The translations under genes were made by a program, and so were the position numbers. From contig NZ_SGXC01000002.1 of assembly GCF_004216695.1 (NCBI RefSeq), positions 1,736,001 through 1,800,000 on the forward strand: DNA of 64,000 bases. Reading direction: 5' to 3'. Shown here in pieces: positions 44,059 through 62,950 of this stretch (its first letter is position 1; every line of letters starts with the position of its first letter). The notes below the pieces were generated by a model, which made no database searches, was not told the DNA's origin, and worked only from the letters and a program-made list of their open reading frames with translations. Source of the DNA: Pigmentiphaga kullae. Lineage in GTDB: Bacteria > Pseudomonadota > Gammaproteobacteria > Burkholderiales > Burkholderiaceae_B.

Positions 44059-44774
44059 CCGTAGCCTTCGGCATCGAAGCCCTGCAGGCCCTCGGGCTTG
44101 GCGATGCGCTTCTCGATGGCGTGGCGGGCCATCAGGCCCCGCGCGCGCTTGGCGTGGAAGCTGATCACCTTGTAGGCCCCGCCCTTCCAGTCCTCGAACA
44201 CGCACTGGATCACGCGGGCCTTCAGCGCCTTGCGGTCGACGGCCTTGAAGTATTCCTCGGAAGCCAGGTTCACCACGACCGGATGCCGGTCGGCCTCCTG
44301 GCGCTGGTTCAGATAGTCGGACAGTTCGCTGCCCCAGTATTCGTACAGGTTCTTGCCCTTGGGGGTCGCCAGCCGCGTCCCCATCTCGAGCCGGTACGGC
44401 TGCATCAGATCCAGCGGCCGCAGCGCGCCGTACAGGCCGCTCAGGATGACCACGTGCTCCTGCGCCCAATCCAGTTGGCGGGCCGTCAGGCTGCCGGCAT
44501 CCAGTCCCTCGTAGACGTCGCCGTTGAAGGCCAGTACCGCCTGCTTGGCGTTTTCCGCCGTAAACTTCGGCGTCCACTTGGCGTAGCGGGCCACGTTCAG
44601 TTCGGCCAGCGCCGGGCTCAGGCTCATGAGGCCCGCGACGTCGTCCGCGGACTTGGTTTTCAGCACCGAGATGAGCTTCCTGGCGCGATCCACGAACAAG
44701 GGCTGGGTGGACGTCTCGACGTGCGCGGGCGTGTCGTAATCCAGTTTCTTGGCGGGGGAAAGAAGAAACAGCAT
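44001..44774 (-). CDS. yaaA: peroxide stress protein YaaA (DUF328)
   Basis: 257 residues, the full family length. YaaA lowers free iron and protects DNA during peroxide stress. Signatures: [11 protein letters not shown] at the start, [22 protein letters not shown] in the middle, and [15 protein letters not shown]. The final codons overlap the convergent cadA coding region by 58 bp, so both proteins' C-termini share DNA. It is divergent from the YchJ-like gene with a 17-bp gap. Confidence 0.94.
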
Positions 44775-44791
44775 GGCGGATACCGGAGCAA

Positions 44792-45193
44792 ATGAAGTCA
44801 GGCGTTAATGTAGACCAATTGTGCCCCTGCGGGCTGCCGCGCCCCTATGCGCAATGCTGCGGCCGCTGGCACCAGGGACCCGGCCACTTGCAGGCGCCCG
44901 ACGCCCCGGCGCTGATGCGGTCGCGCTATAGCGCCTACGTGCTGGGCAGACACGACTATGTGCTGGCGACCTGGCATCCCTCCACCCGGCCGGCCGCCCT
45001 GGAACCCGATCCGCCCGGCCTGAAATGGCTGGGCCTGGAGCTGCGGGTTTCGGCGCAGTCCGACGCCGACCATGCCACGGTGGAATTCGTGGCCCGCAGC
45101 AGGCTGGCGGGGCGTGCCCAGCGGATGCACGAGATCAGCCGCTTCGTCCGCGAGGACGGGCGCTGGTACTACCTGGACGGGACCTTCCCCTGA
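44792..45193 (+). CDS. YchJ-family SEC-C zinc-binding protein
   Basis: 133 residues. An N-terminal SEC-C type zinc knuckle ([14 protein letters not shown]) is followed by a small NTF2-like domain ([20 protein letters not shown], ending [13 protein letters not shown]), the standard YchJ/UPF0225 layout. The function is unknown. It is divergent from yaaA and just upstream of the arylformamidase-like gene. Confidence 0.9.
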
Positions 45194-45269
45194 CGGAGTG
45201 GTTAAACTGGCGGGCGGCGCCCCAGCGCGCCGCTTCCGGCCCACGCGGCCCCGACCCGACTTACACGCC

Positions 45270-46139
45270 ATGCCCGTTCATCCCCTGCACGACCATCCGG
45301 CCTTCACGTCCGAATTCTGCGAACGCGAATACAACAACCTCGCCCGCATTCCCGACCATCCCACCTATACCGCCCGCTGGGCCGCCGACGGCGTGCTGGC
45401 CCGCCGCACGCAAGCCGCGCAGCTGGGACTGCCCTACGGCGAAGCGCCGGCCGAGACCCTGGACTATTTCCCGCCCCGCAGGCCGGGCGCCCCGCTGCTG
45501 GTATTCATCCACGGCGGTTACTGGCGCGCGCTGAACAAGTCCGACTTTTCCTGGATCGCGCCCGCCTACGTGGCGCGCGGCGCCGCCGTGGCCATCGTGG
45601 ACTACGGACTGGCGCCCGCCACGCCTCTTGAGGAAATCGTGCGGCAAATGCTGCGCGCCCACGCCTGGCTGCACCGCCACGCCGCCGAACTGGGTTTCGA
45701 TGCCCACCGCATCGTGACCAGCGGACACTCCGCCGGCGGCCAGTTGACCGCGATGATGCTGGCCGCGCGCTGGCGGGAATGGTCCGCCGACCTGCCGCCC
45801 GACCTGGTCAGCGGCGGGCTGGCGTTAAGCGGCCTGTACGACCTCGAACCAGTCGGCAAGGCACCGTTCCTGGCCAACCTCGAACTGACGCCGGCGCGCG
45901 TGGGTGCACTGTCGCCCGCCTACATCGAGCCTGACCGCCGCGTGCCGCTGATCGCCGCGGTCGGGGCGTCGGAAACGGACGAGTTCCGCCGCCAGAGCAG
46001 GCTGATCGCCGCCTGCTGGCCCCGCAACGTCAAGCGCACGCTGGAGGTGCCCGACTGCCACCATCTGGACATCTGCGACCGGCTGGCCGACCCGGGGCAG
46101 GAATTGTTCGCGGCCGCCTGCGAGCTGCTGGGCCTGTAG
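45270..46139 (+). CDS. arylformamidase-like alpha/beta hydrolase
   Basis: 289 residues. Oxyanion loop HGGYW, nucleophile elbow GHSAGGQ and a late catalytic His in CHHLDICD show an active serine hydrolase. The HGGYW and EREYNNLARIP features resemble bacterial arylformamidases/BAH-type esterases that open N-formylkynurenine. No other kynurenine genes are adjacent. ATG 45270 is preferred over a much longer frame overlapping the YchJ-like gene; a -10-like TAAACT lies at 45203-45208. Confidence 0.85.
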   Translation: MPVHPLHDHPAFTSEFCEREYNNLARIPDHPTYTARWAADGVLARRTQAAQLGLPYGEAPAETLDYFPPRRPGAPLLVFIHGGYWRALNKSDFSWIAPAYVARGAAVAIVDYGLAPATPLEEIVRQMLRAHAWLHRHAAELGFDAHRIVTSGHSAGGQLTAMMLAARWREWSADLPPDLVSGGLALSGLYDLEPVGKAPFLANLELTPARVGALSPAYIEPDRRVPLIAAVGASETDEFRRQSRLIAACWPRNVKRTLEVPDCHHLDICDRLADPGQELFAAACELLGL

Positions 46140-46145
46140 CCCTCC

Positions 46146-46163
46146 GGGGCGGTCTGCCGCCCC
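46146..46163 (+). terminator. GC hairpin after the hydrolase gene
   Basis: GGGGCGG-TCTG-CCGCCCC, 7 bp after the stop codon, without a T tract. Confidence 0.45.
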
Positions 46164-46189
46164 GCCGCAGCCATGGATGGCGTCCGGCC

Positions 46190-46235
46190 ATAAAGTTGAC
46201 GAAATTAACTACATAGTTTACTTTCTCAACTATAT
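46190..46235 (+). promoter_or_regulatory. MarR-type promoter/operator A (of three)
   Basis: Arms ATAAAGTTGA (46190-46199) and TCAACTATAT (46226-46235) are 26 bp apart. They enclose -35 TTGACG (46196-46201), a 17-bp spacer and a weak -10 TACTTT. Inner dyads are AGTTGACGAAATTAACT over the -35 and ATAGTT-N9-AACTAT over the -10. The predicted transcript starts near 46231, 22 nt before the GTG start. Confidence 0.75.
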
Positions 46236-46252
46236 TTCAAGGAAACGCCACC

Positions 46253-46984
46253 GTGGTCGAGGAAAACGAACTGCTGGCCGAGCGACACGGCCATGTCCTG
46301 CTGCTGACGCTGAACCGCCATCCCAAGCGCAACGCGCTCGGCCTGGCGATGCTGCAAGGCCTGGTCGATGCCCTGAATGGCGCCGATGCCGATCCCGACA
46401 CGCGATGCGTGGTCATCGCCGCCCGGGGTAGCTGTTTCTGCGCCGGCGCCGACCTGGAGGAAGCCCGCCGCCTGGCGCGCGAGCAGCCGGAGCTGGCCAG
46501 CCGGCGCAGCGATCTGCTGATCGACATCAATACCATCGTGGCGCGACTGGGCACGCCCGTCATCGCCGCCGTCAACGGCCCCGCCATCGGCGCGGGCGCC
46601 GGCCTGGCGCTGGGCAGCGACCTGGTCCTGGCCGCGCCCGCCGCCCGTTTCGGCTATCCCGAGGTCAAGCACGGCATCTCGGCCGGCATGCTGATTCCCA
46701 ACCTGATCCGGCAGGTCGGCCCCAAGGCCGCCTTCGAACTGGTGGCCACCGGCGACCCCATCGACGCCGAACGCGCCTACGCGCTGGGCATGATCAACCG
46801 CGTCGTGCCCGAGGCGGAACTGCTGCCCGCCGCGCTGGCGCTGGCCGAGCGCCTGGCGCAATTCGCGCCGGCCGGCCTCGCGGCCTCCAAGCGCGCGTTC
46901 CAGCAGGCCTACGAGCTGTCGCTGGAAGACGCGGTGCGCGCCGCGCGCGACGTCAACGACCAGATCCGCGCCTCGGCCGGCTGA
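46253..46984 (+). CDS. enoyl-CoA hydratase/isomerase-family protein (non-canonical crotonase)
   Basis: 243-residue crotonase-fold enzyme acting on a CoA thioester. The oxyanion-hole loops are CFCAGADL and IGAGAGLALG. The first catalytic Glu of hydratases (normally in GGGCEL) is absent (GAGAGL), while the second is kept in FGYPEVKHGI, so simple hydration is doubtful. It is closely similar to the product at 51349-52086. The start is GTG 46253 with AAGGAAAC before it. It leads a two-gene operon with the nitronate-monooxygenase-like gene. Confidence 0.88.
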   Translation: MVEENELLAERHGHVLLLTLNRHPKRNALGLAMLQGLVDALNGADADPDTRCVVIAARGSCFCAGADLEEARRLAREQPELASRRSDLLIDINTIVARLGTPVIAAVNGPAIGAGAGLALGSDLVLAAPAARFGYPEVKHGISAGMLIPNLIRQVGPKAAFELVATGDPIDAERAYALGMINRVVPEAELLPAALALAERLAQFAPAGLAASKRAFQQAYELSLEDAVRAARDVNDQIRASAG

Positions 46985-47021
46985 GCATTCCCACGAATCC
47001 CCAACACTGCCCCCCTCCATC

Positions 47022-47975
47022 ATGCTTGCTACCCGACTGACCTCCCTTCTTGGCATCCGCCACCCCATCGTCCAGGGAGGGATGAGCTGGGCCTCGTCCA
47101 ACGCGGAACTGGCCCTGGCCGTATCCGAGGCCGGCGGCCTGGGCGTGATCGCCGCCGGCCCCATGTATCCCGACGACCTGCGCGCCGCCATCGCCCGCGT
47201 GCGCGCCGGCACGCGCCAGCCCTTCGCCGTCAACGTGCCGCTGTACAACAAGCGCGCGGCGGAATTCCTGGACATCGTGCTGGAGACCGAAGTGCCGGTG
47301 ATCATCGCCTCGCAGGGCGGCCCCAAGGCCCACATCGGCCGCTTCAAGGACGCCGGCGTGACGTGGATACAGGTCACGGCCAATCCGCTGCACGCGCGCA
47401 AGGCCGAGGACGCCGGGGTGGACGCCGTGATCGCGGTGGGCGGCGAAGCCGGCGGCCATCCCGGCCCGGACGAGGTCGGCACGCTGGTACTGGTGCGGGC
47501 GACGGTCAACGCGGTGACGGTGCCGGTGATCGGTGCCGGCGGCATCGCCGACGGCGCGGGCATCGCGGCGATGCTGGCGCTGGGCGCGAGCGGCGCGCAA
47601 CTGGGCACGCGCTTCCTGCTGACCCCCGAATCGGGCCTGCACGCCGCCTACAAGGATCTGGTGCTGAACGCGGGCATCGGCGACACCGCCATCGTCGGCC
47701 GTGGCCGCTCGCCCATCCGCATGGTCAAGAATGCGTTCTCGGCCGAGTACGAGGCGGCCGCCAACCGCGGTGCCGACGATGCGGAACTGGATGCCCTCTT
47801 CGCCCGCAGTTCGCTGCGGCAAGCCGCCAAGGACGGCGACGTGGCACTGGGCAAGGTGGAAGCCGGCCAGAGCGCCGGCCTGATCGACAAGCTGGAGCCT
47901 GCCGGCGAACTGGTCGAGCGGCTGGCGCGCGAAGCGGAAGCGGCCCTGGCCGGCGCCGCCTCCTGCATACGCTGA
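47022..47975 (+). CDS. nitronate monooxygenase-like (2-nitropropane dioxygenase-family) flavoprotein
   Basis: 317-residue FMN TIM-barrel enzyme. PIVQGGMSW at the start, VGGEAGGHPG with the catalytic His, IGAGGIADGAGIAAMLALGA and LGTRFLLTPES are family blocks. Family members oxidise nitronates, but close relatives reduce enoyl thioesters or act on quinones, and the CoA-catabolic context makes a role on an acyl intermediate plausible. It is 37 bp after the crotonase gene. Its stop is one base from the stop of the convergent cycloisomerase gene. Confidence 0.87.
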   Translation: MLATRLTSLLGIRHPIVQGGMSWASSNAELALAVSEAGGLGVIAAGPMYPDDLRAAIARVRAGTRQPFAVNVPLYNKRAAEFLDIVLETEVPVIIASQGGPKAHIGRFKDAGVTWIQVTANPLHARKAEDAGVDAVIAVGGEAGGHPGPDEVGTLVLVRATVNAVTVPVIGAGGIADGAGIAAMLALGASGAQLGTRFLLTPESGLHAAYKDLVLNAGIGDTAIVGRGRSPIRMVKNAFSAEYEAAANRGADDAELDALFARSSLRQAAKDGDVALGKVEAGQSAGLIDKLEPAGELVERLAREAEAALAGAASCIR

Positions 47976-47976
47976 A

Positions 47977-49113
47977 TCAGGCCTGTCCGACGCCGGCGGG
48001 CCGGTAGTCCACGCCCGACCCCAGGCCCTCGGGTACCGCCAGCTCGCCCGACTCGACCTCCAGGCCGACGAACGGGTCGTCCAGCAGGTGGTCGAACTCG
48101 GCCAGCTCGGCGCCGGCATGGATGCTGCCGGCGACGCTGGCCACGTGCACGCCCTGGGCCGCCAACAGGCGCGGCCCGAAGATCGCGCCGAACCGGTAGC
48201 CCACGCCAGCCGCCTCGCACAGGCGGACCGCGATCAGCGTGTTGCGTATCCCGCCCAGGTAGTGCACCTTGAGGTTGTAGGAGTCGGCGGCGCCCATGCC
48301 GATCAGGCGCACCAGCCCTGGCAGCCCGGCGATGGCCTCGTCCGCTTCGATGGGCAGCGCGCCCGCGGCGTGCACACGGCACAATCCTTCGATGTCCGCC
48401 GCCGGCACCGGCTGCTCCATCATCTCCACGCCCATCGGCCGCAGTGCCTCGCACACACGGATCGCCTCGTCGGCCTGGTAGGCCTGGTTGGCATCCACGG
48501 TCAGCGTGACGGCCTCGCCCAGCCGCTCGCGCACGGTGCGCACGCGGGCGACGTCGAGCTCGGACTCGCCGCTCAGCTTCAGCTTCAGATAACGATAGCC
48601 CTGCCGCGCCAGCCTGGCGGCCTGTTCGGCCATGTCACCGGGGGACTTGATCGAGACGATGCGCGAGGCCTCGACGGTATCGCGCACCTTGCCGCCCAGC
48701 AGCACGTGCAGGGGAACGCCCAGCATCCGGGCCTGCAGGTCGTAGACCGCGCAGACGAAGCCCGACAGCGCGCAGACCTCCGCTCCTGCCACGGCCTCCA
48801 GCCGGCGATGCAGGGCTTCGAGCGCGAACGCGTCCCGGCCCAGCGCCTCGCGCCGCAGCGTCTCCAGGACCGGTTCGATGCGGGCGGTGTCTGGCTTGAA
48901 GATGGGCGTGCCCAGCACATGCCCATATCCCACCTGGCCATTGCGCGCGGTCAGCACCACGATCCAGCCGTCCACGTGGGTGATGATGCCGCGCGCGAAA
49001 CGCCAGCTGGGATCGTCCTGGCGCTGCGAGCAGGCGATGATGTCCACGCGGTCTATCGTGGACGCCGCCCCGGCCGAAGCCGGGATGCGCGGGGTGATGG
49101 CGGTCATGGTCAT
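47977..49113 (-). CDS. enolase-superfamily cycloisomerase (muconate lactonizing type)
   Basis: 378 residues. The general bases are Lys in LKLKLSGE and Lys in YNLKVHYLGG. The Mg ligands are Asp in TVDANQAY, Glu in MEQPVP and Asp in IEADEAIAG. This is the muconate cycloisomerase/dipeptide epimerase subgroup, but the substrate cannot be assigned. The ATG at 49113 overlaps the Bug stop (ATGA), which fixes the start and rejects a 73-codon extension. It is last in the crotonase-CoA transferase-Bug operon. Confidence 0.87.
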   Translation of the reverse strand: MTMTAITPRIPASAGAASTIDRVDIIACSQRQDDPSWRFARGIITHVDGWIVVLTARNGQVGYGHVLGTPIFKPDTARIEPVLETLRREALGRDAFALEALHRRLEAVAGAEVCALSGFVCAVYDLQARMLGVPLHVLLGGKVRDTVEASRIVSIKSPGDMAEQAARLARQGYRYLKLKLSGESELDVARVRTVRERLGEAVTLTVDANQAYQADEAIRVCEALRPMGVEMMEQPVPAADIEGLCRVHAAGALPIEADEAIAGLPGLVRLIGMGAADSYNLKVHYLGGIRNTLIAVRLCEAAGVGYRFGAIFGPRLLAAQGVHVASVAGSIHAGAELAEFDHLLDDPFVGLEVESGELAVPEGLGSGVDYRPAGVGQA

Positions 49114-50075
49114 TCGAGCTTGAGGTTGGCCGACTTGATGAGATCCTTGGTGCGCTGGGCGTCGTCCACGACGAAACGCGTGGTCTCCTCGGGCGAAAGC
49201 GTGGCCAGCTCGGTACCCTGGGCCTCCATCAGCTTGCGATATTCCGCCTTCCTGGCAACCGCGTTCAGCGCGGCGTTGAGCTTGTTCACCACCGCCACGG
49301 GCGTACCCTTGGGCGCCGCCACCGTGTACCACGAGGCGGACTCCGCGCCACCCAGGCCCGCCTCGGCGAACGTGGGCACGTCGGGCAACAGCGGCGAGCG
49401 GGTCTTGGACGCGTAGGCCAGGGCACGCAGCTTGCCGGCCTTCACGAAGGGCAGTTCGCCCGACAGGTTCATCACGCCCACCTGCAGGCGCCCGGCCACC
49501 AGGTCGGTGATCGCGGGCGCGGCACCGCCGTAGGGGATGTGCGCCATCTCGATCCTGGCCTGCTGCTTGATCAGCTCGCCACCCAGATGGGGCGAGGTGC
49601 CGGTGCCGGACGAACCGTAGTTCAGCTTGCCGGGATTGCTGCGCGCGAGCTCGATCAGTTCCTTCGCGGTATTGGCCTTGACCGAGGGGTTCACCACCAG
49701 CAGGTTGGGCTGGTTGGCCGCCAGCGCGATGAAGGTGAAATCCTTGATGCCATCGTAGGGCGTGGGCTGGATCAGCGGCGTGACGATATGGGCCGCCGCG
49801 GTGCCGAACAGCAGCGTATAGCCATCGGCCTCCGCCCGCGCCACGTAGGCCGCGCCTATGGTCGCGCCCCCGCCCGCCTTGTTCTCGACCACCACCTGCT
49901 GCCCCAGTTCGGTGCCCAGCTCCTTGGCCAGGCTGCGCGCCACGAGATCGGCCGGGCCGCCCGCGGCATAGGGGTTGACCAGCACGATGGGCTTGGCCGG
50001 ATAGGACTGGGCCTGCGCCCCCGAGGCGGCCAGCACAAGCGCCGCCGCCGACAACGATTGCTTGAACAGCTTCAT
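49110..50075 (-). CDS. Bug/TctC-family periplasmic solute-binding receptor
   Basis: 321 residues with a Sec signal (about 1-23, ending GAQAQ). Bug motifs are VLVNPYAAGGPADLVAR, VENKAGGGATIG, ADGYTLLFGTA and HIPYGGAAPA. AGGAGA precedes the ATG. It is between the CoA-transferase gene (77-bp gap) and the cycloisomerase gene (4-bp overlap), so it very likely captures the acid used by this pathway. Confidence 0.94.
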   Translation of the reverse strand: MKLFKQSLSAAALVLAASGAQAQSYPAKPIVLVNPYAAGGPADLVARSLAKELGTELGQQVVVENKAGGGATIGAAYVARAEADGYTLLFGTAAAHIVTPLIQPTPYDGIKDFTFIALAANQPNLLVVNPSVKANTAKELIELARSNPGKLNYGSSGTGTSPHLGGELIKQQARIEMAHIPYGGAAPAITDLVAGRLQVGVMNLSGELPFVKAGKLRALAYASKTRSPLLPDVPTFAEAGLGGAESASWYTVAAPKGTPVAVVNKLNAALNAVARKAEYRKLMEAQGTELATLSPEETTRFVVDDAQRTKDLIKSANLKLE

Positions 50076-50152
50076 GTGAGTCTCCTGGTATTTATCTTCC
50101 CGCGGCTTCGTAGCGCCGAAGGAAGCGGGATCCGGCTGTCGCCGGCACGGCC

Positions 50153-51352
50153 TTAGATGACCTTTCTTTCGCGCAGCGCCTGGATGTCCTCCTTGCCCAG
50201 GCCCAGCCTGTCCCCCAGCACCTGGTCGGTGTGCTCGCCCAGCAGCGGCGGCCGCCCCAGGCTGGGGTCGTCGAAACCGTCGAACTTGAACGGCACCGGC
50301 AGCGCCTTGAACGAACCGAGCTGGGGATGCGCGAACTCGCGCACCATGCCGCGCGCCAGCACGTGCTCGTTGCTCAGCACCTCGTCCACGCTCAGGATGG
50401 GTCCGGCCGGCACCTTGGCCTCGTCGCACAGCCGGCAGAACTCGTCGCGGTCCAGGCGCGCGACGGCCGCCGACAGGCCGGCCATCACTTCCTCGCGCCG
50501 GTTGACCCGGTCGATGTTGCGCACCAGGGTCGGATCCTCCGCCCACTCGTGCAGGCCGAGCAGGTCGCACAACGGCTTCCAGTGCTGGTCGCTGCCCGTG
50601 ACCTGCACCCACTTGTCGTCGCGGCAGCGGAACGCCGCCGACGGCACGCGGCCCGGATGCTCGGTGCCCAGCCGGGGCGGCACTTCGCCCAGCGCGAAGA
50701 AACGCGCCGCGGCCAGCGACAGCAGGCCGACCTGGCCATCCAGCATGGAAAAATCCACGTGGCAGCCCTTGCCCGTGGCCTGCCGCCCCATCAGGGACGA
50801 CAGGATGGCGATCGCGACCCACAGGCCCGAGGTCAGGTCGGCCACCGGCAGTCCGGGCTTGACCGGACCGCCGCCCCGCTCGCCCGTCAGGCTCATGATG
50901 CCGCCCATGGCCTGGAACACCGTGTCGTAGCCCTTGCGGGGCGCGTACGGACCGGTCATGCCGAAGCCCGTGCACGACACGTAGACCAGCGCGGGGTTGT
51001 CCTGCGACAGCCGGGCGTAGTCCAGCCCGTAGCGCTGCAGCGTGCCGACCGGGAAGTTCTCCAGCACGACGTCGGCCTGGGCGCTGAGCTTGCGGATGAG
51101 ATCCTGCCCTTCGGCGCTGCGCAGGTTGACGGTAATGGACTGCTTGCTGCGGTTGAAAGCCATGTAATAGGCCGATTCGGAACCGCCCTCGCCTTCGACC
51201 CTGGGTTCGAAACCGCGCGTCTCGTCGCCGGTGCCGGGCTGCTCGACCTTGATCACCGTGGCGCCCAGCTCGGCCAGGATCATCGTGGCGAAGGGGCACG
51301 CCAGGACCCGCGACAGGTCCAGGATGGTGACGTTTTCCAGCGGACGCGTCAT
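50153..51352 (-). CDS. class III (CaiB/BaiF) CoA-transferase
   Basis: 399 residues. The family transfers CoA from an acyl-CoA donor to a carboxylic acid through an Asp-bound anhydride. ILDLSRVLACPFATMILAELGA, NLRSAEGQ, YVSCTGFGMTGPYA and the catalytic Asp region VADLTSGLWVAIAI are conserved. Its ATG overlaps the stop of the upstream crotonase gene (ATGA), which defines the start. It probably activates the imported acid. Confidence 0.92.
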   Translation of the reverse strand: MTRPLENVTILDLSRVLACPFATMILAELGATVIKVEQPGTGDETRGFEPRVEGEGGSESAYYMAFNRSKQSITVNLRSAEGQDLIRKLSAQADVVLENFPVGTLQRYGLDYARLSQDNPALVYVSCTGFGMTGPYAPRKGYDTVFQAMGGIMSLTGERGGGPVKPGLPVADLTSGLWVAIAILSSLMGRQATGKGCHVDFSMLDGQVGLLSLAAARFFALGEVPPRLGTEHPGRVPSAAFRCRDDKWVQVTGSDQHWKPLCDLLGLHEWAEDPTLVRNIDRVNRREEVMAGLSAAVARLDRDEFCRLCDEAKVPAGPILSVDEVLSNEHVLARGMVREFAHPQLGSFKALPVPFKFDGFDDPSLGRPPLLGEHTDQVLGDRLGLGKEDIQALRERKVI

Positions 51353-52086
51353 TTCGCCGCCTTGCGGAAGCCCCGCATGATGACGTTGGTGTCGCGTCCG
51401 GCGGCCAGTCCTTCCTCCAGCGTCAACTCGGCCACGCGGTGGAACAGCCGCTTGGTCGTGCCCATCGCGATGGGGCTCCAGCTCGCCAGCTTGGCGGCGA
51501 CTTCCAGCGCGGCCTCCAGCACCCGGTCGTCGGGTTCGACCCGGTTGGCCAGGCCCAGCGCCAGCGCACGCGCGCCGTTGACGGGCTCGCCCATGGCCAG
51601 CAGTTCGAAGGCATGCTTGCGGCCCAGTTGGCGGACCAGATTGGACATGACCACGGCGGCCACGATGCCGTGCTTGAGTTCGGGATAGCCGAAACGGACG
51701 TTCTCGGCCATGACGGCCAGATCGCAGGCGATGGCCAGCCCGGCGCCCCCACCCAGCGCATTGCCCCGCACGGCGGCCACGACGGGCTTGGACATGCGCG
51801 AGAAGGCCAGATGCAGCCCGGTGGTCAGGTCGGCGCGCGCGTTGACGGCCTGGGGATCCTCGGGCACCAGCGCGCTGAACTCCGACGTGTCGGCACCCGC
51901 ACAGAACGACTTGCCCGCCCCCGTCAGCACGACGGCATGGACCTCGGCATCGTGCTCGGCCTGCCACAGCGCATCCACCAGCGCCTGCGTCAGCGCCGTA
52001 TTCAACGCGTTGTGCTTCTCCGGCCGGTTCATCGTCAGGATGCGGACGGCCCCTTGGTTCTCAATCAGGAGTTCGGACATGCTCAT
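51349..52086 (-). CDS. enoyl-CoA hydratase/isomerase-family protein (non-canonical crotonase)
   Basis: 245 residues, paralogous to the 46253 product. CAGADTSEF and ALGGGAGLAIA form the oxyanion hole. The first hydratase Glu is missing (GGGAGL), while FGYPELKHGI keeps the second. ATG 52086 is chosen: the predicted transcript begins about 52105, making an upstream TTG at 52101 unlikely, and GGAAAC serves as ribosome site. It leads the crotonase-CoA-transferase-Bug-cycloisomerase operon from MarR-type promoter B. Confidence 0.88.
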   Translation of the reverse strand: MSMSELLIENQGAVRILTMNRPEKHNALNTALTQALVDALWQAEHDAEVHAVVLTGAGKSFCAGADTSEFSALVPEDPQAVNARADLTTGLHLAFSRMSKPVVAAVRGNALGGGAGLAIACDLAVMAENVRFGYPELKHGIVAAVVMSNLVRQLGRKHAFELLAMGEPVNGARALALGLANRVEPDDRVLEAALEVAAKLASWSPIAMGTTKRLFHRVAELTLEEGLAAGRDTNVIMRGFRKAAK

Positions 52087-52100
52087 GCTCGTGGTTTCCA

Positions 52101-52146
52101 ATATAGTTGATTTTATATACTATTTAATTGATAAATTCAACTATAT
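52101..52146 (-). promoter_or_regulatory. MarR-type promoter/operator B (of three)
   Basis: Perfect inverted arms ATATAGTTGA (52101-52110) and TCAACTATAT (52137-52146), 26 bp apart. On the minus strand the region contains -35 TTGAAT (52140-52135), a 17-bp spacer and -10 TATAAA (52117-52112). Inner dyads overlap both promoter elements, as at sites A and C. Confidence 0.85.
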
Positions 52147-52210
52147 GGACGGAAAACTCCCCCACAGCCCCGTTGCCCCCCCCCTGAGAAAATCGCCCCA
52201 GACCAGGGCA

Positions 52211-52262
52211 CGGGGGATCCGGCTCCGCCGGTCCCCCGCCGCCCGCCCCCTGGGGGGCGCGC
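52211..52262. repeat. compound GC palindromes downstream of marR (REP-like)
   Basis: A 12-bp stem with one bulged base (52211-52223 with 52227-52238, loop TCC) is followed by a second GCCCCC/GGGGGC hairpin (52245-52258). It separates the marR stop from promoter B. It resembles dispersed GC-rich palindromes seen between genes in this bacterial group; it may also terminate marR transcription, although there is no T tract. Confidence 0.45.
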
Positions 52263-52263
52263 G

Positions 52264-52740
52264 TCAGCGCGTACGGGGGGGCTTTAGTTCTTCCAGCAAC
52301 CCGATCGTATGCTCGGTCAGCTTGTCGATCGCGCGCTCCAGCACTTCCCGCTCTTCGTCGGTCAGCACGGACAGCATCTTCTCGTTGCGATCGATGGCCT
52401 TGGGGAACACCTTGCGGTATAGCGCGCGGCCCTGCGGGGTCAGGTCGAGCCGCACGCCCCGGCCGTCCGATTCGTCGGCGCCCCGCTTGACCAGGCCGCG
52501 CTCGATCAGCTCGGCCACGCTGCGGCTGGCCTGGCTCTTGTCGATGTTGGCCTCGTGCGCCAGCGCATTGAGCGACAGCGGAGCGAAGGCGCCCAGCAAC
52601 CCGACGATGCGCCAATCGCGCGAGCCCAGTTCGTACTGGCTCTCGTTCACCCGTGCGGCGATGCGGCTGGAGACGAAGGCCAGGCGGTTCAGGCGGTAGG
52701 AAAACAATTCCTTGAGATTCGCGGGAACAGGTCTTGTCAT
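52264..52740 (-). CDS. MarR-family transcriptional regulator
   Basis: 158 residues. A winged helix (about 35-100: LSLNALAHEANIDKSQASRSVAELIERGLVKR and a wing ESDGRGVRLDLT) is flanked by long dimerization helices. MarR proteins in CoA-linked catabolic clusters usually release DNA when an acyl-CoA binds. It is the last gene of the crotonase-ligase-lyase-thioesterase operon driven from promoter C, so it likely autoregulates and also controls promoters A and B, which carry the same operators. Confidence 0.93.
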   Translation of the reverse strand: MTRPVPANLKELFSYRLNRLAFVSSRIAARVNESQYELGSRDWRIVGLLGAFAPLSLNALAHEANIDKSQASRSVAELIERGLVKRGADESDGRGVRLDLTPQGRALYRKVFPKAIDRNEKMLSVLTDEEREVLERAIDKLTEHTIGLLEELKPPRTR

Positions 52741-52775
52741 ACGTCTTTCTCGATAGGTGAACGCAGGAATTTACC

Positions 52776-53240
52776 TCACTCGGGCCCGGCCGGGGACGGC
52801 CTGGGCCGCCTCAGCTTGAAGCTGCTCATGGCCGTGGCGACCAGCGTGCCCGCCTCGTCCCGCACTTCGCACTGACAGAAGGCGATGGATCCGCCCGCAT
52901 GCCTGACCTCGGCGCGGGCCGTCAGGTCGCCCCGGCCCGGCGCGATGAAATGGATGTTCAGGTCCACCGTGCCGGAGGTCTCCAGGCCGGATTCGATCGT
53001 GCGGGTGGCGATGGCCATGCTCGAATCCATCAACGTGGCGATGGCCCCGCCGTGGATGACCCCGCGCCGGTTCGCCAGCCGCGCGCTGGCGGTCATGACG
53101 AGCCGCGAGCGCCCCAGGTCGGCCTCGTGCACGGCAATGCCCAGCCAGGCGGCGAACGGCGCAAGGGCCGAACCCGCCAGCGGGCCGGTGGGGATGACAG
53201 CCTGGGGCTCGAGCACCGCGCAGGACTCGGGACTATCCAT
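52776..53240 (-). CDS. PaaI-type hotdog-fold thioesterase
   Basis: 154 residues. The hotdog signature NRRGVIHGGAIATLMDSSMAIA contains the HGG and active-site Asp typical of PaaI/YbgC-related acyl-CoA thioesterases. It may release dead-end or toxic CoA esters and recycle CoA. It overlaps the lyase-like gene by 8 bp, so it is translationally coupled, and marR follows after 35 bp. Confidence 0.9.
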   Translation of the reverse strand: MDSPESCAVLEPQAVIPTGPLAGSALAPFAAWLGIAVHEADLGRSRLVMTASARLANRRGVIHGGAIATLMDSSMAIATRTIESGLETSGTVDLNIHFIAPGRGDLTARAEVRHAGGSIAFCQCEVRDEAGTLVATAMSSFKLRRPRPSPAGPE

Positions 53241-54171
53241 GCGCGGCCACCCCCAGCAGGGGATTGAGCCCGCTCTGGGCGACGCGGCTGTGCAGCGTGC
53301 GGCCCAGGGCTTCCTCGCACATGGCCGCGGTCTCCATCAGCCCCGCCAGGTCGATGCCGGTGGACACCCCCATGGATTCGAACAGGTTCACCAGGTCCTC
53401 GGTCGAAACGTTGCCGGTATGCCCGCCGCCGTACTTGACCTTGGCCGGATGCCCGCCCACGCCGCCGAAGGCGCAGTCGAAATAGCGGCAACCCGCCTCC
53501 AGCGCGGCCACGTAGTTGACCAGGCCGGTGCCGCGCGTATCGTGGAAGTGCGCAACGGTCGCCACCTCCGGCAGCTCGGCGTGCACCGCCGACATCAGTT
53601 GCCTGACGGTCTGCGGCGAGGCCATGCCCGTCGTATCGCCCAGCGCCACGTGCATGACGCCCAGTTGGGCAAAGCGCCGGACGTCCTCCAGCACGCTGTC
53701 GGCCGATACCTTGCCCTCGAACGGACAGCCCCAGGCGACCGATACCGTGCCGATCATGCGGAAACGCCCCTGCGATGCCGCCACCATGTCGGCCACGTTC
53801 TGCCACTGGTCGGCACGGCTGCGCCGCAGGTTCTTCATCGAATGCGATTCGCTGGCCGACACCAGCAGGCTGATCTCGTTGGCGCCGAAGCCGGCGTCCA
53901 GGTCGGCCACCGCGCGTTCGACGGCACGCACGTTGGCGCAGGTCGCCTTGTACCAGACTCCGTCGCGGCGTGGCAGTGCGCGCAGCAGCTCGCTGGCATC
54001 GCCGAACTGGGGCACGACCTTGGGATTCGAATACGAGGTCGCCTCGACACGCTGGAAACCGATGCCGGCGAAGCGGTCGATCAACGCCACCTTGGTGGCG
54101 GTGGGGATGAAGGTTTCCTCGTGCTGCAGCCCATCGCGGGCAAAGCATTCGCAAAGCGTGACGTCGCTCAT
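53233..54171 (-). CDS. HMG-CoA lyase-family protein with altered active site
   Basis: 312-residue TIM barrel of the HMGL-like family. RDGLQ and HFHDTRG keep the metal and catalytic residues of HMG-CoA lyase, and GNVSTED keeps the later Asn. The loop that normally reads GGCPYA is GGHPAKVK with about four extra residues, so the catalytic Cys is replaced by His. It probably cleaves or condenses a different acyl-CoA. The start at MSDVTLCECF is preferred over a 19-codon extension; the ligase gene ends 4 bp upstream. Confidence 0.87.
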   Translation of the reverse strand: MSDVTLCECFARDGLQHEETFIPTATKVALIDRFAGIGFQRVEATSYSNPKVVPQFGDASELLRALPRRDGVWYKATCANVRAVERAVADLDAGFGANEISLLVSASESHSMKNLRRSRADQWQNVADMVAASQGRFRMIGTVSVAWGCPFEGKVSADSVLEDVRRFAQLGVMHVALGDTTGMASPQTVRQLMSAVHAELPEVATVAHFHDTRGTGLVNYVAALEAGCRYFDCAFGGVGGHPAKVKYGGGHTGNVSTEDLVNLFESMGVSTGIDLAGLMETAAMCEEALGRTLHSRVAQSGLNPLLGVAAHG

Positions 54172-54175
54172 CGGT

Positions 54176-55819
54176 CTAGCCTCCCTTCGCGCCATGGACG
54201 TTGCCCAGCCCGAACAGCTCGATGGCATGGGCCTTGAGCTTGTTCTTCTGGACCTTGGAACTGCCCGTCATGCCGATATTGTCGAACGTATCCACGATCT
54301 CCAGGTAGCGCGGCACCTTGAAGTTCGCGCAGCGCGCCTTGCACCAGTCGATCAGTTCCTGGCGCCCGGCCTGCTTGCCTTCCTTGAGCAGCACGAAGGC
54401 CGCCGTCACCTCGCCCAGGCGGGCGTCGGGCACGCCGATCACCTGGGCCATCTGCACCGCGGGATGCGCGTGCAAGGTCTCCTCGACCTCGGCCGGCGCA
54501 ACGTTCTCGCCGCCCACCCGGTACATGTCCTTGAGCCGGCCGACCATGCGCAGCCGGCCATCGGGCGACATCTCCCCCAGGTCGCCCGTGCGCAGCCAGC
54601 CTTCCGGCGTCAGCGCCTTGGCGGTCGCCTCGGGCATCTTGTAGTAGCCGCGCATCACGTGCCAGCCCCGCACCTGGATCTCGCCCTGGCCGCCGGGGGG
54701 AAGGACCTCGCCGCTGTCCTGGTCGACGATGCGCACCTCGGTGCCCGGATGCGGCAGCCCCCAGCCGTGGGCGCGCAGCTCGAAGGGATCGTCCCGCGAC
54801 GACATGATCACGTTGGGCGAAGCTTCGGACTGTCCATAGGCATTGCAGACGTGGTCCACGCCCATCACGTCGCGGATCTGCTGCATGACCTCGGGTCCGG
54901 CCGCCGCCCAGCCGCCGCGCAGGTGCAGCTTCTTGGGATCGAAGTCGGGATGGCCCATCATCATCAGGAAGATGGTGTCGTTGCCCGAGGTCAGGGTGCA
55001 CTTCTCCTCGTCCATCACGCGCAGCGTCTCGGCCACGTCGAACTTGGGCAGCGTCAGCAGGCAGCAGCCCGCCACCAGGCTGACCAGCACGGACAACGTC
55101 GTGCCCGAGACGTGGAAGAACGGCCGGATGCTGAAGTAGCGGTCGTCGTGGCGCACGCCTATGCGCTGGCCGGCGGCCCAGGCGTTGGTCAGCATGTTGG
55201 CGTGGGTCAGCATCACGCCCTTGGGGAACGACGTGGTGCCCGAGGTGAACTGCATCAGCAGCAGATCGTCGGGGGTGATGCCAGCCGCCACCGCCTCGAT
55301 GGTATCGGGCGCCACCTCCTGGCCGCGGGCCAGGAAATCCGCGTAGCGCTCGGCGCCCTCCGGGCAGGGGCCGTCGCCCACCATGACGGCACGGCGCAGT
55401 TCGGGCAGCGCCTGGCCGGGCAGGCCGGTGTTCAGCGCCGGCTCGACCGCGGTCAGCAACTGCACGAAATCGATGCCCAGGAAGGCGTCGGCGAACACCA
55501 GCAGCTTCACGTCCGCCTGCTTCAGGCAGAACTGCAGTTCGTCGGTCTTGAAGCGGGTGTTGACCGGCACGGTCACCGCGCCCAGGGTCGCGCAGGCGAA
55601 GAAAGTCTGCAGCCAGGTGGCGCCGTTGCCCAGCATGATCCCGACATGGTCGCCCTTGCGCACGCCGCTGGCGTGCAGCGCGGCGGCGATGCGGCGGGTG
55701 CCGGCCAGCACCTCGTCCCAGGTCAGGCGGTCGGCCTGGCAGACGAAGGCCTCGCGCGAGCCGTACTCGCGGGCGGTGTGCTCCAGGGTGCGATAAAGCG
55801 TGGTGGGACGGTCAAGCAT
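54176..55819 (-). CDS. acyl-CoA synthetase (AMP-forming)
   Basis: 547-residue adenylate-forming ligase. P-loop FTSGTTSFPKG, YGQSEASPN at the adenine site, TGDLGEMSPDGRLRMVGR hinge region, and the C-terminal catalytic lysine in GSSKVQKNKLK. It converts a free acid to its CoA thioester, giving the pathway a second activation route beside the CoA-transferase. MLDRPTTLYRT at 55819 overlaps the crotonase stop by 8 bp and fixes the start. The substrate is unknown. Confidence 0.92.
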   Translation of the reverse strand: MLDRPTTLYRTLEHTAREYGSREAFVCQADRLTWDEVLAGTRRIAAALHASGVRKGDHVGIMLGNGATWLQTFFACATLGAVTVPVNTRFKTDELQFCLKQADVKLLVFADAFLGIDFVQLLTAVEPALNTGLPGQALPELRRAVMVGDGPCPEGAERYADFLARGQEVAPDTIEAVAAGITPDDLLLMQFTSGTTSFPKGVMLTHANMLTNAWAAGQRIGVRHDDRYFSIRPFFHVSGTTLSVLVSLVAGCCLLTLPKFDVAETLRVMDEEKCTLTSGNDTIFLMMMGHPDFDPKKLHLRGGWAAAGPEVMQQIRDVMGVDHVCNAYGQSEASPNVIMSSRDDPFELRAHGWGLPHPGTEVRIVDQDSGEVLPPGGQGEIQVRGWHVMRGYYKMPEATAKALTPEGWLRTGDLGEMSPDGRLRMVGRLKDMYRVGGENVAPAEVEETLHAHPAVQMAQVIGVPDARLGEVTAAFVLLKEGKQAGRQELIDWCKARCANFKVPRYLEIVDTFDNIGMTGSSKVQKNKLKAHAIELFGLGNVHGAKGG

Positions 55820-56579
55820 TTTTCTGCGCTCCCGCACCGAAGCCCGAGATCGCCCGCTTCCAGTCGCTGTGGCGCAGGTTCTCTTCGATGGCCAGCAGTT
55901 CCACGGCCATCGCGCCCTCGCGCGTGGTCTCCACGCCCTGGTCCACACAGCGCTTGGTCAGCCGGACCGTCAGCGGCGCGGCGGCGGCGATGTGGCGGGC
56001 CATCTCGAAGGCGCGCGCTTCCAGCTCGGCGGGCTCGTATACGTGGTTCACCAGCCCGATGGCCTTGGCTTCCTGCGCCTCCACGGTTCGGCCGGTGAAC
56101 AGCAGTTCCTTGGCCATGCGCACGCCCACCATGCGCGGCAGCCGCTGGGTTGCGCCTATGGTGCCCCAACCGACCTCCGGGTAGCGGAACTTCGCTTCGG
56201 TGGAGGCCAGGATGAAGTCGCTGGCGCCGGCGATCTCGCAGCCCGACCCGAAGGCCGCGCCGTGCACCACGGCGATGACCGCCTGCGGCAGGCGCTCGAG
56301 GGCGGCATAGGCGGTGAAGCCCTTGACGCGGCGCGCGGTCAGCTCGGCGGTGGACATGTCCTTCCGCTCCTTCAGGTCGGCGCCGGCGCAGAACACCGGC
56401 CCTTCTCCGCGGATCACGACCACGTGCACGGTCTCGTCGGCGGCCAGCGCCTCGGCCGCGGCGATCAGCTCGCCGCACATGGCCGTATTGAGCGCGTTGC
56501 GGCTTTCGGGCCGGTTCAGTGTCAACGTGGCGACGTGGTCCTCGACCTCGACGCGGATGGTGGAATATGCACTGCTCAT
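55812..56579 (-). CDS. enoyl-CoA hydratase (canonical crotonase)
   Basis: 255 residues. Unlike the other two crotonases here, both catalytic glutamates are present: GSGCEIAGASD and FRYPEVGWGTIGATQRLPR. That supports true 2-enoyl-CoA hydration. FCAGADLKERKD gives the other oxyanion-hole loop. It is first in the operon with ligase, lyase-like gene, thioesterase and marR, behind promoter C. Confidence 0.93.
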   Translation of the reverse strand: MSSAYSTIRVEVEDHVATLTLNRPESRNALNTAMCGELIAAAEALAADETVHVVVIRGEGPVFCAGADLKERKDMSTAELTARRVKGFTAYAALERLPQAVIAVVHGAAFGSGCEIAGASDFILASTEAKFRYPEVGWGTIGATQRLPRMVGVRMAKELLFTGRTVEAQEAKAIGLVNHVYEPAELEARAFEMARHIAAAAPLTVRLTKRCVDQGVETTREGAMAVELLAIEENLRHSDWKRAISGFGAGAQKNA

Positions 56580-56606
56580 GCGAACCCCTGGATGTCTGGT
56601 GGCCTA

Positions 56607-56652
56607 CGATAGTTGTTTTTATACACTACTTTGTTGACGATAACAACTATAT
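56607..56652 (-). promoter_or_regulatory. MarR-type promoter/operator C (of three)
   Basis: Arms CGATAGTTGT (56607-56616) and ACAACTATAT (56643-56652) are again 26 bp apart. The minus strand reads -35 TTGTTA (56646-56641), a 17-bp spacer and -10 TATAAA (56623-56618). The outer arm overlaps the last codons of the livF-type gene, so this promoter is embedded at the end of the transporter operon. Confidence 0.83.
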
Positions 56653-57357
56653 GGGCGAGACATCCGGCCCGGGCATGCGGCAATCCGCCTGCCCCGGCGC
56701 TCCGGGCGGCGTCCGCCCCAGCATGCCGTCGTCCATGTACAGGCTGCGGTCCGCCAGCGGCGCGGCCAGGGCCTCGTTCTGCTCGGACAGCAGGATCGCC
56801 AGCCCCTGCCCGCGCAGGACGCGTATCGCCTCCACCAGCCGCTGCACCACGATGGGGGCCACGCCCTCGGAAGGCTCGTCCAGCAGGATCACCCGAGGCT
56901 GGGTCATCAGCGCCCGGCCGATCGCCAGCATCTGTTGTTCCCCCCCGCTCAACGCGCCGCCCGGCCGGTGCGCCAGCGGTTCGAGTTCCGGAAACAGGCG
57001 GCAGACCCGCTCCACGGTCCAGGGTTCGGCGCCGGGACGCGGCCGGCCCATGGCCACCTCCAGGTTCTGCCGCGCCGTGAGCTGGGTGAACACGCGCCGG
57101 TCCTCCGGCACCCAGGCCAGGCCCGCATGCACCCGCCTGTCGGCACGCCAGCCGGCCATGGACCGGCCATCCAGCAACACCTCGCCCGAGGTCTCGACCA
57201 GACCCGCCAGCGCGCGCATCAGCGTGCTCTTGCCGGCCCCGTTGCGTCCGACCAGGGCGACGATCTCTCCCGCCCCGACGTCCAGGTCCACGTCGAACAA
57301 GGCCTGCGCCCGGCCATGGAAGGCGCACAGCGCGCGCGTCTGCAACAGCGCCGTCAT
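56647..57357 (-). CDS. branched-chain-type ABC transporter ATP-binding protein (LivF type)
   Basis: 236 residues. Walker A GRNGAGKST, signature LSGGEQQM and Walker B ILLDEP are intact, as in LivF ATPases. It energises the importer encoded upstream. Its ATG overlaps the livG-type stop (ATGA), which defines the start. The C-terminal 20 residues vary and overlap operator C. It ends the transporter operon. Confidence 0.93.
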   Translation of the reverse strand: MTALLQTRALCAFHGRAQALFDVDLDVGAGEIVALVGRNGAGKSTLMRALAGLVETSGEVLLDGRSMAGWRADRRVHAGLAWVPEDRRVFTQLTARQNLEVAMGRPRPGAEPWTVERVCRLFPELEPLAHRPGGALSGGEQQMLAIGRALMTQPRVILLDEPSEGVAPIVVQRLVEAIRVLRGQGLAILLSEQNEALAAPLADRSLYMDDGMLGRTPPGAPGQADCRMPGPDVSPI

Positions 57358-58109
57358 GCCGGCGCTCCCACTGCGGCCATGCCCAGGTAGGCCGCCCGCA
57401 CCGCCGGATCCTCGGCGATCCGCCTGGGCGCCCCTTCGGCGATCACGCGGCCGCGCACCAGGACCAGGACCTTGTCGGCGAAGCCGAACACCACGTCCAT
57501 GCTGTGTTCGGTGAACAACACCGCCAGGCCACCGGCGGCCTCCTGCTTCACGATGGCCATCAGGCCGCGCCGGTCGGCCCGCGTCATGCCCGCGGTGGGC
57601 TCGTCCATCAGCAACACGCGGGGCTTCAGGGCCAGCGCGCTGGCCAGCTCCACGCGCTTGAGTTCGGGATAAGGCAGTTCCCCGCACAGCCTGCCGGCCA
57701 GCGCCCCCAGGTCGAAACGCTCCAGCCAGGCGTGCAGCTCGGCCGGATCCGCGCCCGCCCCGCGGCCGCGTACGCCATGCCAGACGCCGGGATCGCGGGC
57801 GGCCAGCGCCAGCGCGACGTGCTGGCCCACGCTCAGCGACGCCGCCACCTGGGCGATCTGGAATGTCCGCCCCAGGCCCAGCCGGGCCCGCGCGGCCACG
57901 CTCAGGCGAGTCACGTCGCGCCCGTCGAATGCGATGCGGCCGGCATCGGGCTGGAGCTGGCCGTTGATGCACTGGAAGCAGGTGCTCTTGCCCGCGCCGT
58001 TGGGACCGATCAAGGCCAGCATCTGGCCGCCTTCCAGCGTGAATCCGACGTCCTCCACCGCCCGCACGGCGCCGAACGACTTGGACAAGCCCGTCACGAC
58101 CAGCTTCAT
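57354..58109 (-). CDS. branched-chain-type ABC transporter ATP-binding protein (LivG type)
   Basis: 251 residues. Walker A GPNGAGKST and Walker B LLMDEPTAGM are present. The signature region reads ELPYPELKRVELA, the degenerate form (in place of LSGGQ) common in LivG-like subunits. RTFQIAQV is a family marker. ATGA overlaps join it to the permease gene upstream and the livF-type gene downstream. Confidence 0.93.
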   Translation of the reverse strand: MKLVVTGLSKSFGAVRAVEDVGFTLEGGQMLALIGPNGAGKSTCFQCINGQLQPDAGRIAFDGRDVTRLSVAARARLGLGRTFQIAQVAASLSVGQHVALALAARDPGVWHGVRGRGAGADPAELHAWLERFDLGALAGRLCGELPYPELKRVELASALALKPRVLLMDEPTAGMTRADRRGLMAIVKQEAAGGLAVLFTEHSMDVVFGFADKVLVLVRGRVIAEGAPRRIAEDPAVRAAYLGMAAVGAPA

Positions 58110-60049: not shown

Positions 60050-60052
60050 CGC

Positions 60053-61264: not shown

Positions 61265-61383
61265 GGACAGACTCGGACTAGGCCCCACGATGAAGATGCC
61301 CGGCATGCGGGGCGGGCGAACGCCGGCACCCCTCCTTTGCGGAGGAGCGCCTATTGTAAGGGGCTAAGGAGCCGCCGGAAGAA

Positions 61384-62358: not shown

Positions 62359-62950
62359 GGCGGGACAGCTCAGTGACTAAATTGGGTACCAGCGTGCCGG
62401 CTGGCACGCCATGGACAACACAACCAGAATCGAAGCAAGGCCCGCACACGGAAAACGGCGTGATGCGTAGGCGCACGGAGAACGACAAACAAACGCTAAA
62501 GTTTCTTGCGGCGCAGCCGTTAACGTTCCGTATCAGCGTTATTGCATAACTGCGCGCACAATTCAATATGTAAAAAAATACGACGCTCTCCGATTCATAT
62601 CCTGCTTGCGACATCCGCAACTTTCTTATCTTCCACTGACGCCGCCCATCGCCCGCCTGTAAGCACTCGCCAGCATTTCCCGGCAAAACTGCAACATTTG
62701 GTACGGCGTCATCCCCTACCCTTCTACCTAGGGAAATCCCCTAGTTTCGCGATGCCTCCGTCAGGGCGATAGCGCCCCCACCCCGGCTTCCCCCTCTCGC
62801 TTACATCCCGCCAGCATACCGGACCATTTGGTCCAGATTATGAAAATCCACCAACGCAGGGAATGACCTGACTTGCCGCCTCCATTCGTCAAAGTTTAGT
62901 ATTCGAAAACTATTTTTATATACAAAACACAAAGAAAGGAGACGGAAAGC
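62359..62950. other. 592-bp divergent intergenic region, AT-richer
   Basis: No convincing gene. A 76-codon frame at 62542-62772 lacks a ribosome site and family resemblance. The base composition is clearly more AT-rich than the flanks, especially 62500-62640 and 62880-62940. It presumably holds promoters for the heparinase-like gene and the solute-binding protein gene, and contains the palindrome at 62728-62744. Confidence 0.6.
62728..62744. promoter_or_regulatory. CTAGGG palindrome, possible regulator site
   Basis: CTAGGG-AAATC-CCCTAG, a 6-5-6 inverted repeat preceded by TAC. It lies 207 bp upstream of the solute-binding protein start. The shape fits a dimeric activator, for example a LuxR-type response regulator, but that is only a guess. 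Confidence 0.4.

Follow-up and report, generated by a model that had tools for sequence, protein, structure and literature searches.

Putative doubled MarR-type operators at three promoters of a coenzyme A-dependent catabolic gene cluster in Pigmentiphaga kullae

The stretch of DNA analysed here, hereafter the window, comprises 64,000 nucleotides of contig C2 (NZ_SGXC01000002.1, positions 1,736,001 to 1,800,000) in the 6.22-megabase (Mb) genome of Pigmentiphaga kullae and harbours three groups of genes, operons A, B and C, whose limits were inferred from gene order and strand and of which operon C ends with a gene for a MarR-type regulator. In front of each operon a site of 46 base pairs (bp) was found, reading in gene orientation ATAAAGTTGACGAAATTAACTACATAGTTTACTTTCTCAACTATAT at 46190-46235 (site A), ATATAGTTGAATTTATCAATTAAATAGTATATAAAATCAACTATAT at 52101-52146 (site B) and ATATAGTTGTTATCGTCAACAAAGTAGTGTATAAAAACAACTATCG at 56607-56652 (site C). 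A sequence-only reading of the window had described these sites as inverted arms separated by exactly 26 bp and standing before crotonase-family genes, and both points hold; the arms and their gap can be read directly in all three sites, and the first gene behind each matches the Pfam family ECH_1. Each site consists of two abutting 21-bp palindromes of the form ATAGTTG-N7-CAACTAT (N, any base), at positions 3-23 and 24-44 of the 46-mer, with the operator centres 21 bp, or about two helical turns, apart. The inner dyads of the earlier reading are present, but both are this one operator occurring twice and not two types of dyad, and its proposal that one operator type is common to the three promoters is borne out by the doublet read at A, B and C. 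The operators, with their matches to the 14 consensus positions, and the candidate promoter hexamers within them are, in gene order:

46192 to 46212, plus strand: operator A1, AAAGTTGACGAAATTAACTAC, 11/14; 17/21 columns invariant in 9 Pigmentiphaga genomes
46196 to 46201, plus strand: candidate -35 of A, TTGACG, within operator A1
46213 to 46233, plus strand: operator A2, ATAGTTTACTTTCTCAACTAT, 13/14; 14/21 columns invariant
46219 to 46224, plus strand: candidate -10 of A, TACTTT (weak), within operator A2
52124 to 52144, minus strand: operator B1, ATAGTTGAATTTATCAATTAA, 12/14; 9 genomes aligned
52140 to 52135, minus strand: candidate -35 of B, TTGAAT, within operator B1
52103 to 52123, minus strand: operator B2, ATAGTATATAAAATCAACTAT, 12/14; 7-bp spacer identical in 9/9 genomes
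52117 to 52112, minus strand: candidate -10 of B, TATAAA, within operator B2
56630 to 56650, minus strand: operator C1, ATAGTTGTTATCGTCAACAAA, 12/14; 10 genomes aligned
56646 to 56641, minus strand: candidate -35 of C, TTGTTA, within operator C1
56609 to 56629, minus strand: operator C2, GTAGTGTATAAAAACAACTAT, 11/14; 6/7 spacer columns invariant in 10 genomes
56623 to 56618, minus strand: candidate -10 of C, TATAAA, within operator C2

When scored with the arms of the sequence-only reading and the 26-bp gap, the three sites are the top three of the window with 19 (A), 20 (B) and 16 (C) matches out of 20, the runner-up place reaching 13 and the maxima of 20 Markov-shuffled windows lying at 11-14. 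Lone operators are within chance, with 11-13 of 14 matches in the sites, 11 at one further place in the window and 9-12 in shuffled windows, and genome-wide, allowing three mismatches, the lone operator is found at 39 places compared with 22 for the reversed control. A genome-wide motif search with the two-operator pattern (16 fixed bases, at most three mismatches) revealed 6 places in 6.22 Mb against 1 for the reversed control; site A shows no mismatch, sites B and C and one place on contig C4 two each, and two others three. It is the phased pair, not the lone operator, that exceeds chance, and it does so by far.

Within the genus, marR orthologues with 85-99% identity are present in nine of the ten other genomes. 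Alignment of promoters from ten Pigmentiphaga genomes showed the exact doublet in 28 out of 28 (9 for A, 9 for B and 10 for C), with 67-90% of the columns invariant in the operators, 0-6% upstream and 0-2% downstream, the flanks being aligned without gaps so that the downstream value understates the similarity among the closest genomes. Left unaligned were promoter A of G010, which carries the doublet, and promoter B of the same genome, which is lost to a contig end. A search for the double pattern with at most two mismatches returned 31 places over 11 genomes, 27 at cluster promoters and 4 elsewhere, against 1 for the reversed control; promoter B of G004 and of G005 falls below this cut, and no match was found in G001, the sole genus genome without a marR orthologue.

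Beyond the genus, 268 family genomes were searched and 50 contained the marR orthologue (E-value at most 1e-35), at 51 places, of which 50 loci were examined (G042 was excluded). The search covered 207 regions upstream of the cluster genes and their paralogues, some of them overlapping and divergent genes sharing one; four upstream regions shorter than 60 bases were dropped from the family count, and operator C of the window falls outside it owing to the same-strand rule and the overlap with livF, the window being counted by A and B. The operator was found with at least 11/14 in 50 out of 50 loci and with 12/14 in 49, compared with 42 and 20 loci for the best of 209 permuted half-sites (medians 1 and 0). 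In L080 it stands before a pair of tctC and coenzyme A (CoA) transferase paralogues and not before the main cluster. Pairs of operators are spaced by 21 bp in 43 of the 207 regions, the next commonest distance, 40 bp, being found in 11. All Pigmentiphaga loci (g1, 10/10) carry the 21-bp pair, as do those of g10 (3/3), g8 (3/3) and g12 (1/1) and most of g9 (4/6), while it is found in 1/6 loci of Advenella (g3) and 0/1 of g38; the operator is single in Achromobacter and often doubled elsewhere. The Advenella loci L102-L107 have two operators 40 bp apart (about four helical turns, not two) between marR and the next gene in all six cases, and in three loci of g9 (L092 5584, L093 13228 and L094 5631) a doublet precedes a divergent tctC-CoA transferase pair beside the cluster, the crotonase promoter of the cluster itself having one strong operator.

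Outside the family, 11 loci with marR orthologues of at least 47% identity were analysed, leaving out the partial locus L187. In nine of them an operator of at least 11/14 stands no more than about 60 bp ahead of the flavoprotein gene at the head of the cluster, the exceptions being L167, with no operator there, and L170, which is without that end of the cluster; at 12/14 it is found in 6/11 loci, against a mean of 0.41 and a maximum of 4 for permuted motifs. Among 14 loci with marR relatives of less than 40% identity one has the operator at 12/14, a result equalled or exceeded by 42 of the 209 permuted motifs. Within Achromobacter, an operator with at most one mismatch was found in 9 of 21 genomes containing the orthologue and in 1 of 22 lacking it, the reversed control giving 3 and 0. 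Orthologues of marR occur in Pigmentiphaga, Achromobacter, Bordetella, Advenella and Comamonadaceae.

The earlier reading had also placed a promoter with a 17-bp spacer in each site, with its -35 box in the outer arm. The hexamers fit this geometry, a candidate -35, TTG(A), being located in the left half-site of operator 1 and a candidate -10, at 17-bp spacing, in the spacer of operator 2. The operator-2 spacers are conserved at B (7/7 columns invariant) and C (6/7), compared with 2/7 and 3/7 in operator 1, which speaks for the promoters of these two operons. However, a scan with the strict sigma-70 consensus calls none of the three promoters, and at A the operator-2 spacer has 3/7 invariant columns against 5/7 in operator 1, so that its -10 is uncertain. 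The predicted promoters of A, B and C are plausible but weak. In two Achromobacter promoters (L069, one ahead of the flavoprotein gene and one ahead of the crotonase gene, compared by eye) the left half-site has TTGA or TGGA in the same place and a -10-like hexamer follows 17 bp on. The core site may be operator 1, to which a second operator would have been added across the -10; this overlap would account for the degenerate inner half of operator 2.

The regulator encoded in operon C scores above the curated cut-offs of two Pfam models, MarR_2 (43.8 bits, cut-off 27) and MarR (31 bits, cut-off 24.6), its solved sequence relatives are MarR regulators and its predicted structure has the MarR fold. 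That this protein is the likely binder, as proposed from the window, is strengthened by the comparative genomics, in which the motif tracks the marR orthologue. We consider it probable that the three sites are MarR-type operator-promoter modules, each doubled and bound by homodimers of the operon C MarR, with autorepression and release by a metabolite. A homodimer would bind each 21-bp palindrome, and two dimers would sit next to each other at a distance of 21 bp, on almost the same side of the helix. With the -35 covered at operator 1 and the -10 at operator 2, RNA polymerase would be blocked. Since marR lies in operon C, it would repress itself together with its partner genes until released by a metabolite of the pathway, possibly a CoA thioester. 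The sequence data support well that the catabolic, CoA-dependent cluster has a repressor of the MarR type which is autoregulated; binding, repression, cooperativity and inducer are proposed by analogy with the MarR family, and the tight cooperative repression and the release by a pathway acyl-CoA predicted in the earlier reading belong with these proposals.

Besides the outcome of the strict promoter scan, several observations weigh against this interpretation. In the modelled recognition helix (residues 68-80, identified from their place within the MarR fold) 4 of 13 residues are invariant among 22 orthologues. The inner half-sites reach 7/7 in none of the 28 Pigmentiphaga promoters, compared with 19 and 25 for the outer ones, and the 21-bp pair is found in none of the 20 Achromobacter loci (g2), so that doubling is not general. 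The family counts of 50 and 49 loci out of 50 come from related genomes and are not independent, and the permutation control concerns composition only; its best half-site at 12/14, AGTTGAT, is a shift of the real one and scores in 20/50 loci. As to specificity, a MarR-GNAT gene on contig C4 has a GTTGCG-type doublet of its own, a marR in G001, 28% identical, has a 13/14 operator about 74 bp upstream, and 4 of the 14 marR relatives below 40% identity (L181, L182, L183 and L192) have operators of 11-12/14 at about 20-60 bp upstream. The lone operator with at most one mismatch occurs in 76/268 family genomes, many of them without the orthologue, the reversed control matching many too. Cross-talk with other MarR proteins is possible, the motif not being private to the operon C regulator.

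Given the degenerate inner half-sites, the two operators may not be equivalent, or the site may be composite. In the latter case each 46-bp site would form one operator in which the outer half-sites carry most of the binding, for instance through two dimers leaning on each other or through a larger assembly, while the inner halves serve mainly as promoter. The means over the 28 promoters, 6.6/7 and 6.9/7 for the outer and 5.1/7 and 4.7/7 for the inner half-sites, agree with this and justify the emphasis laid earlier on the outer arms, and the 21-bp phasing would permit contact between dimers. However, in Achromobacter and other promoters the candidate -35 is covered by one near-complete 21-bp palindrome, which can therefore occur by itself, and doublets such as that of L096 (12/14 and 13/14) are strong in both operators; we regard a composite operator as unlikely.

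A little less probable again is that the main regulator is another MarR paralogue. The genome contains 23 MarR matches, and similar operators are found beside several MarR genes both here and in relatives, but the operator accompanies the operon C orthologue in 50/50 family loci and 9/11 loci outside the family, and the genus genome without that orthologue has no doublet. An origin of the sites as chance palindromes, or as repeats dispersed by a mobile element, was rejected and is next to inconceivable, for although they form A+T-rich islands within 69% G+C DNA, the window and shuffle scores, the failure of permuted motifs matched in composition, the genus-wide pair search and the 28-promoter alignment, with exact 21-bp doublets between diverged flanks, all speak against it, and the spacers of A, B and C differ, unlike those of a recent repeat.

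The regulon of the operon C MarR had been described as local; the sharing of the operator by A, B and C stands, but the regulon is probably not only local, with a conserved doublet at an unlinked tctC gene. This fourth doublet (C4:120796-120837; L123 6797-6838) consists of two 11/14 operators 21 bp apart and is located some 92 to 51 bp ahead of a tctC gene that seems to be solitary; no marR was noticed around this gene when the first 60 residues of the listed reading frames were inspected by eye. Orthologues of this tctC (E-value at most 1e-90) are present in 9 of 11 genus genomes, its own included, and the exact 21-bp pair in 6; G004 and G005 have one weak operator (10/14), and the G002 match is partial, its upstream region not being covered. 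The gene is the best candidate for a fourth, unlinked member.

Further operators were observed at other tctC genes. At C3:230370-230390 (L124 5371) a tctC-enolase pair is preceded by a 13/14 operator with an additional ATAGTTGAT half-site beside it; a site of 13/14 precedes the orthologous tctC in G003, G007, G008 and G009, and near-identical operators are found in G002 and G006. Another 13/14 operator, with a G+C-rich spacer, lies upstream of a different tctC gene at C2:751269-751289 (L126 6270) and is also present in G006 and, by sequence alone, in G002 and G009. The doublet of the MarR-GNAT gene (C4:266137-266178; L047 8138-8179) is a GTTGCG...CGCAAC variant with the 21-bp spacing at the start of the gene, which sits between a groEL-like gene (identified by eye) and cellulose-synthase genes. 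A regulon extending over many promoters was rejected; G004 has 9 and G005 13 lone operators with at most one mismatch, and most of the 13, which were inspected, overlap predicted reading frames. Control of the liv transport operon was likewise rejected, no operator of at least 12/14 being found in 44001-63000 besides those of A, B and C. In this genome the livF stop codon (56647-56649) lies inside operator C1; the livF matches obtained in 7 other loci of the genus stop about 43-91 bp short of operator C in the alignment.

The genes behind the three sites, with their Pfam matches, are the following (AMP, adenosine monophosphate; HMG, hydroxymethylglutaryl; PDB, structure entries):

46253 to 46984, plus strand: operon A gene 1, crotonase-family; ECH_1 1.4e-45
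47022 to 47975, plus strand: operon A gene 2, nitronate monooxygenase / FabK-like flavoprotein; NMO 1.3e-62, FabK model under cut-off
51349 to 52086, minus strand: operon B gene 1, crotonase-family; ECH_1 7.1e-53
50156 to 51355, minus strand: operon B gene 2, class III CoA transferase; CoA_transf_3 1.5e-116
49113 to 50075, minus strand: operon B gene 3, TctC/Bug periplasmic receptor; TctC 1.6e-70
47977 to 49113, minus strand: operon B gene 4, enolase-superfamily (start probable); MR_MLE_C 1e-44
55812 to 56579, minus strand: operon C gene 1, crotonase-family; ECH_1 1.5e-49
54176 to 55825, minus strand: operon C gene 2, AMP-forming acyl-CoA ligase (start approximate); AMP-binding 1.1e-83
53233 to 54228, minus strand: operon C gene 3, HMG-CoA lyase-like; HMGL-like 2e-38, PDB 6nds E 4.2e-65
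52776 to 53240, minus strand: operon C gene 4, hotdog thioesterase; 4HBT 4.5e-16
52264 to 52740, minus strand: operon C gene 5, MarR-type regulator, proposed repressor; MarR_2 3e-11

The nearest solved sequence to the operon B CoA transferase is a succinate-hydroxymethylglutarate CoA-transferase (PDB 9br6, E 2.8e-81), and the HMG-CoA lyase-like protein has GGHP where its nearest solved relative (6nds) has GGCP. The crotonases of A and B, 46% identical to each other, retain one catalytic Glu while the other is replaced by Gly, and crotonase C has both, at the positions which we take to be catalytic from the numbering of rat enoyl-CoA hydratase. The gene set proposes capture by the TctC receptor followed by CoA activation by the class III CoA transferase and the ligase, after which the crotonases would carry out a hydration or isomerisation and the HMG-CoA lyase-like protein would cleave a hydroxyacyl-CoA. 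By its genes, the pathway would be the breakdown of a branched carboxylic or dicarboxylic acid via a cleaved hydroxyacyl-CoA.

Among known systems, MexR of Pseudomonas aeruginosa is described as having two sites, PI and PII, each an inverted GTTGA pair and overlapping promoters; the same source reports that adjacent site pairs are common in MarR-protein operators and counts the role of two adjacent MarR sites among the unresolved questions (PMC9892617). MexR, like the protein proposed here, is a MarR-family dimer, and its PII oligonucleotide contains TAGTTGACCTTATCAACC, with the same core TAGTTGA-N5-TCAAC. The layout is also alike, with two adjacent GTTGA-type inverted repeats at the promoter (here a candidate one), the inner half-sites being degenerate in the present sites. 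In contrast, MexR controls, according to that source, a drug-efflux operon and not CoA catabolism, and it is a distant relative of the operon C MarR (PDB 1lnw, E 7.8e-12). CouR of Rhodococcus jostii, whose box cATTGA-N5-TCAATg is reported to overlap the -35 in four promoters and which is released by p-coumaroyl-CoA (PMC4737184), resembles the present proposal in being a MarR-type repressor whose CoA catabolic regulon comprises several promoters. The candidate -35 boxes of the predicted promoters A, B and C lie in operator 1; unlike here, the boxes described for CouR are single, not doublets, and the host is Gram-positive. No entry named CouR was found among the 20 solved sequences (E-value at most 1e-8) or the 50 fold matches listed, which excludes nothing. 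SCO3205 of Streptomyces coelicolor differs in consensus and spacing, and the available part of its description mentions no such catabolic cluster (PMC3737563); for BpsR of Bordetella the ligand described is 6-hydroxynicotinic acid and not a CoA ester (PMC6837509). Among the publications listed in a literature search, judged by titles and abstract openings, none dealt with this regulator or cluster. Tandem MarR operators are already known from MexR, and the present case, as proposed, operates in the manner of the MarR switches already described, its geometry and its comparative record both being clear.

When comparing the arrangement of the genes, a single row behind one site, made up of the genes for the flavoprotein, both crotonases, the CoA transferase, TctC, the ligase, the lyase and MarR, was found in L095-L100 (Bordetella and neighbours), Polaromonas jejuensis (L143) and Comamonas and others (L160, L164 and L166), while Pigmentiphaga has the same genes as three transcription units, each with its own doublet. 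The single row may be ancestral and the split later. We tentatively suggest, as an idea with somewhat less than even chances, that the 42-bp unit is a reusable operator-promoter module and that the break-up of the cluster gave each new unit and the unlinked tctC a copy of its own, one MarR still switching all of them. In such a module the half-site would supply the -35 and the spacer of the second operator the -10, and the 21-bp phasing would fit both.

The analysis yields a precise, testable operator and a predicted regulon for this group of MarR orthologues. Ranging from a single operator in Achromobacter to a pair at 21 bp in Pigmentiphaga, and with the genes in one long row or three short ones, these genomes offer a natural series in which to ask what doubling adds to repression by MarR, and the regulator itself points to a CoA-dependent pathway for the breakdown of acids.

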